The notes under the pieces are model-generated. The model was not told the DNA's origin. It saw only the letters and a program-made list of their open reading frames with translations, and searched no databases. Position numbers and translations under genes: made by a program. From Bacteroidia bacterium (lineage in GTDB: Bacteria; Bacteroidota; Bacteroidia; Chitinophagales; JAUHXS01), in the NCBI GenBank assembly GCA_030426955.1, contig JAUHXS010000008.1, positions 62,001 through 126,000 of the forward strand: a DNA stretch of 64,000 bases, given 5' to 3'. How positions within the stretch are numbered: the first letter of the stretch is position 1; every line of letters starts with the position of its first letter. Of this stretch, positions 3,988 through 30,555 are shown piece after piece.

Positions 3988-4064
3988 AAAAGGATTACTG
4001 CGTGATCCTTAAGCGCTCTAAGGTCAAAATCAAAACATCATTCCGTTTCAACGGAATGCATTTT
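3988..4064. repeat. Intergenic double-hairpin repeat, copy 2
   Basis: Same organisation as the copy at 2042-2117: AAGGAT/ATCCTT hairpin (3991-4010), then CATTCCGTTTCAACGGAATG at 4039-4058; 4016-4064 is identical to 2069-2117. In this copy the segment AATCAAAACATCATTC (4027-4042) can also pair, with one mismatch, with 4116-4131, enclosing the terminator at 4082-4110 in a larger hairpin. Confidence 0.8.
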
Positions 4065-4081
4065 CAATAACTCGCAAAAAC

Positions 4082-4110
4082 AAAAGCGAGCTTTCATTTT
4101 GCTCGCTTTT
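4082..4110 (-). terminator. Bidirectional hairpin terminator after tRNA-Arg
   Basis: A 10-bp stem AAAAGCGAGC / GCTCGCTTTT with a 9-nt loop, with T-runs on both strands. It lies 29 nt beyond the 3' end of tRNA-Arg on the minus strand and is a good intrinsic terminator for that unit. Confidence 0.8.
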
Positions 4111-4138
4111 GAAAATGAATCATGTTTTGATTCTCTTG

Positions 4139-4212
4139 TGATCGCGAAAGGATTCGAACCTTTGACCGTCTGCTTAGAAGGCAGATGCTCTATCCAGCTG
4201 AGCTACGCGACC
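4139..4212 (-). tRNA. tRNA-Arg (anticodon TCT)
   Basis: A full cloverleaf of 74 nt on the minus strand: acceptor GGTCGCG / CGCGATC (one G-T pair), D arm GCTC...GAGC, anticodon stem TCTGC / GCAGA around loop CTTCTAA, T arm AAAGG-TTCGAAT-CCTTT, discriminator A, CCA not encoded. Its 5' 23 nt overlap the 3' end of the GIY-YIG gene at 4190-4447. A broken copy of its 5' half lies at 4477-4565, on the other side of that gene. It is probably transcribed from the promoter at 4581-4610. Confidence 0.95.
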
Positions 4213-4447
4213 AATATCTTTTAATGAACTCTTTGCCTATTCCACTTTTTAAATATTTCTCTCTTTTTCTAGCTTCTTCTCGGGTTTTGAATTTTTCGAA
4301 GAAAACTAAAATCCATGGCGTATAGCCCTTCGTTGACTTTGTTCTACCGTTATTATGTTCTTTGATTCTTCGCTCCAAAGATTCAGTCATTCCTACATAA
4401 AAACGACCATCTTTCAAACTCCTTATAGAATAAACAAAAAAACTCAT
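4190..4447 (-). CDS. Small GIY-YIG endonuclease-domain protein, overlapping tRNA-Arg
   Basis: An 85-residue protein that is little more than a GIY-YIG nuclease domain of the short UvrC-N/YhbQ-like type. It has the VYS...FYVG core strands (residues 5-18), the helix Arg in ESLERRIKEHNNG, the TKGYTPWILVF strand, and a Glu in RKREKYLKSG that fits the metal-binding position. The start ATG is 30 nt beyond a fragment of tRNA-Arg. The last seven codons (WSRSSAG) and the stop TAG are read from the tRNA-Arg gene itself. Homologues are common, multi-copy and often tRNA-linked in Bacteroidota as far as I recall; their biological role is unsettled. Function as a nuclease is inferred from family only. Confidence 0.85.
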   Translation of the reverse strand: MSFFVYSIRSLKDGRFYVGMTESLERRIKEHNNGRTKSTKGYTPWILVFFEKFKTREEARKREKYLKSGIGKEFIKRYWSRSSAG

Positions 4448-4476
4448 TACTTAAAAGAACTTTTATCCCTTTGGTT

Positions 4477-4565
4477 GCAGATGCTCCCTGCCTGCCGGCA
4501 GGCAGGTATCCAGCTGAGCTACTTGTCCGCCGAATCCACCTTAGTGGGGAAGGAGGACGCGCACC
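4477..4565 (-). pseudogene. Broken 5' copy of tRNA-Arg carrying two inserted palindromes
   Basis: On the minus strand the segment reads as the 5' part of tRNA-Arg: flank ATATT, then GGTGCGC (acceptor, compare GGTCGCG), TAGCTCAGCTGGATA (4521-4507, identical), GAGCATCTGC (4486-4477, identical). It ends in the 5' anticodon stem. Two foreign pieces interrupt it: 37 nt at 4522-4558 that fold on themselves (GTCC...GGAC ends), and a perfect 20-nt palindrome CCTGCCTGCCGGCAGGCAGG at 4487-4506. It cannot make a tRNA. With the whole tRNA at 4139-4212 it brackets the GIY-YIG gene. Confidence 0.85.
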
Positions 4566-4580
4566 AATATTAATGGATCA

Positions 4581-29794: not shown

Positions 29795-29817
29795 TCCCTT
29801 TAGGGCCCATAGCTCAG
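29741..29817 (+). repeat. Tandem-duplication repeat, copy 1 (GIY-YIG end plus tRNA 5' end)
   Basis: These 77 nt match 30113-30189 with four substitutions and no gaps. The unit covers the last ~54 nt of the GIY-YIG frame, the 8-nt spacer GATCCCTTTAG region, and the first 15 nt of the tRNA with anticodon CAT. Confidence 0.9.
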
Positions 29818-29916
29818 CTCCGATACGACAAAATTTCTAATTTTAATCGTATCGAGAGTTCTCGGAGTTTTTTCAAAATTGAAAATTTTGGAAACTTCGG
29901 AATTGGTTAGAGCAGT
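29803..29916 (+). pseudogene. Broken 5' copy of tRNA-Met/Ile2 carrying an 85-nt insert
   Basis: GGGCCCATAGCTCAG (29803-29817) and TTGGTTAGAGCAGT (29903-29916) together make the first 29 nt of the tRNA at 30175-30248, unchanged. Between them are 85 foreign nt (29818-29902) rich in self-complementary arms: CGATACGA / TCGTATCG, CTCCGA / TCGGAG and CAAAATT / AATTTTG. The copy ends in the anticodon stem, 4 nt before the ATG of the GIY-YIG gene. Confidence 0.88.
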
Positions 29917-29920
29917 TTTC

Positions 29921-30166
29921 ATGAAATACTTTACTTATATCTTAAAAAGTACATATAGAGGGCAATTCTATATAGGAAGCACACAAAACCTGAAGGCTCG
30001 AATCATTAAACATAATTCTGGTCAAAATAAATCAACCAAGGAGGGTATTCCTTGGGTACTAGTTTACCATGAGGAATACGAAACGAGATCTGACGCCTAC
30101 AGAAGAGAAAAAGAGATTAAATCGAAGAAAAGCAGAAAATATATCGAAAACTTATTAAATTCGTGA
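29921..30166 (+). CDS. Small GIY-YIG endonuclease-domain protein
   Basis: An 81-residue single-domain protein. The ATG at 29921 gives MKYFTYILKSTYRGQFYIG, where TYIL and FYIG are the GIY and YIG strands; an in-frame extension to 29879 would read through tRNA sequence and is rejected. Arg in LKARIIKHNSG and Glu in RREKEIKSKKS fit the catalytic and metal-binding positions. It is complete and may be active. It lies between a broken and a complete copy of the same tRNA, starting 4 nt after the first and ending 8 nt before the second. Cutting specificity unknown. Confidence 0.85.
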   Translation: MKYFTYILKSTYRGQFYIGSTQNLKARIIKHNSGQNKSTKEGIPWVLVYHEEYETRSDAYRREKEIKSKKSRKYIENLLNS

Positions 30167-30189
30167 TCCCTTTAGGGCCCATAGCTCAG
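30113..30189 (+). repeat. Tandem-duplication repeat, copy 2
   Basis: Second copy of the 77-nt unit at 29741-29817 (four differences). The high identity points to a recent duplication of the whole GIY-YIG + tRNA unit. Confidence 0.9.
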
Positions 30190-30248
30190 TTGGTTAGAGC
30201 AGTGGACTCATAATCCATTGGTCGCAGGTTCAAGTCCTGCTGGGCCCA
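30175..30248 (+). tRNA. tRNA with anticodon CAT (Met elongator or Ile2)
   Basis: Complete cloverleaf: acceptor GGGCCCA / TGGGCCC, D arm GCTC...GAGC, anticodon stem GTGGA / TCCAT around CTCATAA, T arm GCAGG-TTCAAGT-CCTGC, discriminator A. The T-arm and variable-loop sequence is closer to the tRNA-Ile2 that carries lysidine than to initiator Met, but elongator Met cannot be excluded. Confidence 0.93.
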
Positions 30249-30555
30249 CTTTAGTATGTACTTCTGCACGTTTCAGTAACCCTCTATACCCCTTTTTCGC
30301 ACCTTTTTTAAAGCTCGTAATCACTGACACGCTTGAGTAAGTGTACAAAACCGTGACCGATTTCATGGCTGATTGACAAAGAGGCACCTAAGTGAAAACA
30401 TAATGGTTCAGATGGCCTAAATATGAAAACAAACTAGCAGTCGCAAAGTTAAATATCAGATTTAGTATGTCAATTTGTCGGCTTTTTGGATCTAAAAAAC
30501 AGTTTTTGTCTTAACAATTACCTTTGGCACGATTTATGTATATGTTAAACAAATT
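30249..30555. other. Non-coding stretch between the CAT-anticodon tRNA and the RNA candidate
   Basis: No coding frame with family resemblance. Mixed composition with several T-runs (for example CCCCTTTTTCG near 30290, possibly the tRNA terminator without a clear stem). A promoter for the downstream RNA would be expected near 30515-30545, where TTTGGCA and TATATGTT occur, but the spacing does not match the consensus. Confidence 0.4.

Follow-up and report, generated by a model that had tools for sequence, protein, structure and literature searches.

This locus raises the question of how a perfect 20-nt palindrome came to lie inside a broken tRNA gene. The palindrome, CCTGCCTGCCGGCAGGCAGG, which we call P, occupies positions 4487-4506 (no strand assigned) of the window, the 64,000-nt stretch of DNA analysed here, and as RNA it would form an 8-bp stem closed by a 4-nt loop; the initial annotation had given its sequence and coordinates exactly. 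On the minus strand, P stands in the context GTAGCTCAGCTGGATA-P-GAGCATCTGC, and the corresponding stretch of the intact tRNA-Arg(TCT) gene at 4138-4212 (minus strand) reads GTAGCTCAGCTGGATAGAGCATCTGC. The piece preceding P (4507-4522, minus) is an exact match to positions 7-22 of the intact tRNA-Arg, running from the acceptor end to the D loop, and the piece directly after P (4477-4486, minus) continues with positions 23-32, from the 3' strand of the D stem to the anticodon stem. With P removed, GTAGCTCAGCTGGATA and GAGCATCTGC together match positions 7-32 of the intact tRNA-Arg gene without a difference, bearing out the earlier proposal that excision restores the tRNA sequence. Exactly 20 nt have thus been added between tRNA positions 22 and 23, at the 3' border of the D loop, and no target bases are duplicated. 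The site is the only match to P in the window at up to three mismatches, where shuffled sequences gave an expectation of zero.

What P interrupts is not a whole tRNA-Arg but a 5' remnant of one. Further 5', it is probably interrupted again, by a hairpin at 4523-4557 (minus strand, boundaries uncertain by about one base) that folds at -10.3 kcal/mol with one extra base included. Beyond this hairpin, an acceptor-like GGTGCGCG at 4558-4565 (minus; GGTCGCG in the intact gene) is tentatively placed as a possible 5' end of the remnant, and because this acceptor part is an inexact match, the assignment of 4523-4557 as a second insert is less certain. A search of Rfam returned a good match only to the intact tRNA, with the lactis-plasmid and leu-phe leader models falling below their gathering scores. 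Just 3' of the intact tRNA-Arg, at 4030-4132 (minus), we also observed a long nested hairpin, one arm of which is broken by a 20-nt palindrome-like sequence, CATTCCGTTTCAACGGAATG, as if a hairpin had been placed inside a hairpin.

The initial annotation overlooked the larger unit in which the broken tRNA lies. Between the remnant and the intact gene, an ORF of 85 aa at 4190-4447 (minus) encodes a GIY-YIG nuclease domain (PF01541, E 6.8e-18), its last codons falling within the 5' end of the intact tRNA-Arg. The protein resembles a PHROG homing endonuclease family (1.5e-7) and scored below the cut-off for TIGR01453; its relatives of solved structure are the UPF0213 proteins 1ywl (2.8e-8) and 1zg2 (5.3e-8), with SLX1 at only 0.076. 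A search of phage records with the protein returned 17 records, all at less than 60% identity. A second unit of the same design lies on the plus strand of the window, where positions 1-15 of a tRNA-Met(CAT) remnant (29803-29817) are followed by an 85-nt insert in the D loop (29818-29902) that consists of two hairpins (-27.1 kcal/mol with two flanking bases), after which the remnant resumes from position 16 (29903-29915). There follow a GIY-YIG ORF of 81 aa counted from ATG (29921-30166, or 29879-30166 if started from TTG) and an intact tRNA-Met(CAT) at 30175-30249. The window therefore holds two units consisting of a tRNA half with a hairpin, a GIY-YIG ORF and an intact tRNA.

GIY-YIG homologues of this kind were found in 182 of 296 genomes of the phylum, with up to 18 per genome, sometimes as runs at regular intervals, for example five in G287 at a spacing of 450 bp. 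We surveyed 127 copies of the ORF in 90 loci, 30 of which were given by the search and 60 picked roughly by E-value, not at random. The ORF is open in 118 of the 127 copies, and the catalytic Y, Y, G, R, H and E residues are conserved in 105-111 of 113 distinct ORFs. An intact tRNA was present within 700 bp of 100 copies, on the same strand in all 100 and almost equally often downstream (48) or upstream (52) of the ORF; the remaining 27 copies, having no intact same-strand tRNA within this distance, were left out of the scoring of remnants. For 91 of these 100 copies, a stretch of 10 nt or more from the same tRNA recurs beyond the ORF, compared to a remnant in 133 of 2000 control trials in which a tRNA of another isotype was swapped in. 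The ORF is therefore enclosed by two versions of one tRNA, the one a remnant and the other intact. The remnants are 5' halves in some units and 3' halves in others. Four loci (L277, L302, L312 and L342, in G287, G345, G185 and G107) contain GIY-YIG ORFs in tandem arrays with a spacing of 316-450 bp, and in the arrays inspected the ORFs alternate with tRNA pieces.

Interruption by hairpins is common among these remnants. Inserts of at least 9 nt divide 53 or more of the 91, a lower bound, given that reading the sequences shows further inserts missed by the method, and 18 of the 91 are unsplit with at least 25 nt matched, some of them spanning the T arm (for example at L340 and L305). Forty-one distinct clean inserts leave the tRNA numbering unbroken. 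Their folding energy falls within the lowest 5% of same-length segments from their own locus in 31 cases, and 36 touch an unpaired tRNA position where 22.9 would be expected. Nearly half (19 of the 41) lie at just three points: in the D loop before its 3' stem (8), in the T loop at GTTC|GA (7) and in the anticodon region of tRNA-Ser at G|C (4). The first of these, the border of D loop and stem, is the same point at which P is inserted in the window, and the presence of unrelated hairpins at the same tRNA positions in other units had escaped the initial annotation. The sequences inserted differ by point: D loops carry P and its sisters, T loops carry paired TCC...GGA mini-hairpins, and tRNA-Ser carries longer nested hairpins. 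At L286, L292, L300, L313 and L339, two tandem mini-hairpins (e.g. TCCCGTAGGGACCCCTTTGGGG) occupy tRNA T loops and anticodon arms. Both the sequence and the position of the hairpins differ among units of one tRNA type. These tRNA halves, flanking small GIY-YIG genes in many bacteria and very often bearing hairpins, suggest a little-known way of invading tRNA genes.

P itself is a dispersed insertion. The genome from which the window derives (3.4 Mb in 23 contigs) contains two exact copies and one with a single mismatch. A tRNA-like piece again surrounds the other exact copy (GTGAGAATA-P-GCTCAGCT), and an intact tRNA-Gly starting GCGAGAATAGCTCAGCT follows less than 100 nt downstream. Exact P was found in 8 of 59 order-level relatives and 27 of 395 genomes of the phylum, the genome of the window being included in both, and in 65 of 286 Patescibacteria genomes, the phylum of a Collierbacteria record (L072), where a genome of 0.9 Mb reaches the maximum of 26 copies. 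The reversed palindrome, a control of the same composition, was absent from all three sets of 59, 395 and 286 genomes. A scan of species genomes for exact P returned at least 116 stretches, and the records among the matches listed belong to Patescibacteria groups, Bacteroidetes, Omnitrophota, Nitrospirae, Elusimicrobia, Verrucomicrobia, Planctomycetales, WOR-1 and, once, Chloroflexi. Only 33 stretches with exact P were found in 2.9 million viral contigs, and plasmids, searched with a 30-nt query, yielded nothing beyond chance-like partial matches.

Filled and empty versions of the same site, the pairs by which the initial annotation had hoped to recognize an inserting palindrome, were found in addition to the tRNA copies. 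One copy of P lies in Winogradskyella echinorum (L027), and at eight sites in congeners its left 16-mer is joined directly to the right flank with P absent; six of these share the 9-nt right side TTATAGGAC exactly and two have diverged. In the tRNA copies as well as at the Winogradskyella empty sites the difference is exactly 20 nt, and no target duplication is present. The P-bearing Winogradskyella site in L350 is itself a clustered repeat, with several per genome in the genus, and this repeat is perhaps integron-like. In G034, copies of P split GACACAA repeats without disturbing their register. GACACAA minisatellites are scattered in two related genomes, G020 and G034 (L007, L008, L014, L019 and L137-L141), and the exact copies of P at these loci sit inside them.

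To describe the insertion sites, we counted flanks, ORFs, tRNA junctions and hairpin loops after leaving out L007 (one real copy, in G020) and true duplicates. In a set of 179 distinct copies, A immediately precedes P in 47%, compared to 27% in controls, and T does so in 10%; A is also enriched at position -3. The junction falls inside a short tandem repeat of at least 8 nt in 19% of these copies as against 2% of controls, and P is often nested in repeats of the CGTCATT... type. Insertions are mostly intergenic, 67 of 180 copies (viral loci included) lying within an ORF of at least 120 aa compared to 75% of random positions. With viral loci excluded, 12 of 181 copies are at tRNA-like junctions, as opposed to 2 of 900 random positions, and in 8 of these 12 a GIY-YIG ORF lies within 600 nt. 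The other 169 copies are away from tRNAs, and P therefore spreads without GIY-YIG/tRNA units. At three loci (L006, L122 and positions 2400-2700 of L147), a P-bearing tRNA 5' half was observed shortly upstream of an intact tRNA with no GIY-YIG ORF detected between the two; these are possibly units that have lost the ORF. We rejected the idea that P is a general seeker of hairpin loops, since 34 of 176 copies (again excluding viral loci) were in loops compared to 19.0% of intergenic control positions. A narrower test for stems that meet at the junction gave a small excess, with a stem score of at least 7 in 5 of 179 copies versus 0.3%.

P belongs to a family of perfect and imperfect inserting palindromes of about 20 nt. 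When two mismatches are allowed, copy numbers climb to 39 in G447, 34 in G345 and 23 in G451, and individual genomes favour sister palindromes of their own, such as CCTGTCTGCCGACAGGCAGG, CCTGCCTGCCGGTAGGCAAG and CCTGCCTGACGGCAGTCAGG; the reversed control, searched at three mismatches in 15 genomes, gave three matches in G291, one in G453 and none in the rest. In G451, CCTGCCTGACGGCAGTCAGG is central in P-like arms at the ten places read (L220-L229), once twice running, and the asymmetric copies of G345 are oriented, with A on the left in nearly all. G345 also carries a sister palindrome in frame, read as LPAGRQ (..GQNLPAGRQGLSSGIYFY..), in seven T9SS tail domains (L230-L236), where a CGTC-like repeat adjoins it; in both tails tested, the TIGR04183 match lies after the insert. 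The initial annotation had anticipated a family of tiny inserting palindromes, and in this it was right: the 20-mer is dispersed, with two exact copies in its own genome, many in others and clean empty sites, through Bacteroidota and far beyond. Its accompanying suggestion, that P is read as PACRQAG inside many hypothetical Bacteroidota proteins, found little backing. Because P is 20 nt long, it shifts the frame when inside an ORF, and in the window PACRQAG is read in an ORF at 4355-4573 (plus strand) that runs antisense to the GIY-YIG gene and the tRNA remnant.

The reading that we favour, and that we hold with about even confidence, is that P is one of a family of hairpin insertions of about 20 nt that enter DNA cleanly, here into a tRNA-Arg half left by a GIY-YIG unit nested in a duplicated tRNA gene, and that the predicted nuclease cuts tRNA genes while the hairpins protect the spare half. 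The small nuclease, acting as a putative homing enzyme, would cut tRNA genes as SegB of phages does, and repair would then copy the unit in with one whole tRNA kept, so that each round would leave a spare tRNA half and could build tandem arrays. Hairpins placed by a presumed inserting enzyme at a few fixed points, at or beside the loops of the spare half, would break both the cut site and the direct repeat, and the unit would therefore be neither recut there nor looped out. The units that persist would be those with hairpins in the spare half. Accordingly, we favour a role of the hairpins in blocking recutting or recombinational loss.

A possible, if doubtful, alternative is that hairpin families insert genome-wide by a separate process with no link to the nuclease, and that tRNA halves, being free of selection, simply keep their inserts while intact tRNAs with inserts are lost. 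This explanation remains a serious one because most copies of P lie elsewhere, 169 of 181 being outside tRNAs, with P present in T9SS tails and in repeats of both the tandem and the CGTC type, and it would also account for remnants that hold P-family and unrelated hairpins alike. However, neither the 19 of 41 inserts that place different hairpins at three exact tRNA points nor the 31 of 41 with extreme local folding energy would be expected from random decay. The presence of P is also tracked by GIY-YIG number: among 23 P-positive and 100 P-negative Bacteroidota genomes, drawn out of 296 from the ten families with both kinds, the P-positive genomes have a mean excess of 2.35 (family-stratified p 1.5e-4). 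In Patescibacteria, the mean number of GIY-YIG genes was 8.0 in 25 genomes with at least four copies of P and 3.08 in 25 with none, although these groups were unmatched by lineage and the zero-copy genomes were taken mostly from the first part of the table. Among the 25 P-rich Patescibacteria genomes, P copy number and GIY-YIG number did not rise jointly (Spearman 0.07). A bolder extension of the favoured reading, which we consider rather unlikely, is that the units are widespread tRNA-gene parasites of bacterial chromosomes: the tiny GIY-YIG genes would insert and rebuild one whole tRNA, hairpin insertion at their own cut points would mark the left-over half as uncuttable, and P would be an escaped mark that is now present in many phyla.

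It is improbable that P is instead a REP-like element moved in trans, as single-stranded DNA, by a Y1 (HUH) transposase of the RAYT/IS200 type. Its hairpin form, precise insertion and lack of target duplication would suit such a mechanism, as would the imperfect palindromes of one genome with their fixed orientation and A on the left, and Y1 genes are common in both phyla, with at least one match in 28 of 33 P-positive Bacteroidota. Nevertheless, Y1 numbers were not raised in P-positive genomes (stratified p 0.12 in Bacteroidota, p 0.24 in Patescibacteria), and the P-rich genomes G635 (23 copies) and G465 (15 copies), for both of which completeness is unstated, had no Y1 match. In addition, the junctions carry no GTAG or CGTC tag and are A-rich only at positions -1 and -3. 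These results do not support a Y1 transposase as the mobilizer of P. Still less probable, and in our view very unlikely, is that the hairpin-bearing halves are functional RNAs, such as decoys or antitoxins in the manner of RNA-antitoxin systems, which would bind the adjacent nuclease or feed it, with the hairpins fixing their fold; while the shared strand in 100 of 100 cases, the strong folds and the arrays would fit this, hairpin sequence and position vary within one tRNA type, and which half is present, 5' or 3', differs from unit to unit. Finally, although a perfect palindrome of extreme GC content could point to a sequencing or assembly artefact from adapter or hairpin ligation, this is hardly conceivable for a sequence that occurs in the single-contig genomes G156, G187, G249, G277 and G345, and in isolates and MAGs of many projects with variants that differ by lineage.

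If the favoured reading of hairpins that protect tRNA halves left by a nuclease unit is true, it would tie tiny palindromes that insert exactly and encode no enzyme to the many small GIY-YIG ORFs beside tRNA genes, linking two features of environmental bacterial genomes that are so far unexplained. It would also offer a concrete and cheap test of how a 20-nt sequence moves, namely whether the nuclease cuts at the hairpin points, and it would serve as a warning for annotation, as hairpin-bearing tRNA halves and ORFs with PACRQAG or LPAGRQ would be products of insertion.

Judged by titles and abstract openings, the open-licence full-text literature searched contained no publication on the P 20-mer, its 18- and 16-nt cores, PACRQAG or LPAGRQ, or on the GIY-YIG/tRNA unit. 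With its dispersed copies and clean filled and empty sites, P takes its place as an inserting palindrome family, and it lacks the target-site duplication of a MITE with terminal inverted repeats. The small dispersed repeats of cyanobacteria resemble P in being very small mobile insertions that are nested in other repeats, but differ from it in sequence and host range. As characterized in the excerpts of PMC3733652, GTAG REPs and their RAYT partners share with P the form of short dispersed imperfect palindromes (20-40 nt), the mostly intergenic location and the lineage-specific variants. In contrast to these, P lacks a GTAG tag, both within itself and in the flanks of 179 copies, its presence in a genome does not go with raised Y1 numbers, and it spans phyla as one exact 20-mer. 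CGTC REPs and the Rickettsia palindromic elements, as the excerpts of PMC3733652 and PMC2229807 present them, are likewise short palindromes without a known transposase, some of them inside genes. By the excerpted definition of CGTC REPs (PMC3733652), which includes a CGTC tag and an unpaired CCA-like tail, P differs in having no such tail and no tag in the flanks of the 179 copies, and the Rickettsia elements, at 105-146 bp (excerpts of PMC2229807), are far longer than the 20 nt of P.

The units, for their part, can be compared with SegB of the T-even phages. The excerpts of PMC13096335 describe SegB as a free-standing GIY-YIG enzyme whose cleavage motif, RAWTSGAAC, lies inside tRNA genes and which drives the tandem repetition of tRNA-Tyr plus segB; the 5' end of the tRNA resembles the 3' end of segB. 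Measured against that excerpted account, both systems have a GIY-YIG nuclease adjoining tRNA genes, tandem repeats of tRNA and nuclease gene, and a tRNA 5' end that resembles the 3' end of the nuclease gene, and the ORFs described here have the GIY-YIG domain with conserved catalytic residues. Unlike SegB, however, the units are located in bacterial chromosomes and encode proteins of about 85 aa with a GIY-YIG domain only, the ORF being enclosed by an intact tRNA and a hairpin-bearing remnant of the same isotype. The T-loop hairpin point falls inside GTTCSAWTY, the complement of the SegB motif, and we read GTTCSAWTY as the tRNA T loop, an equation of our own rather than one taken from PMC13096335. 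The link to SegB is thus an analogy drawn from domain, location and motif. Given these parallels, the units may be chromosomal relatives of SegB in the way they work.
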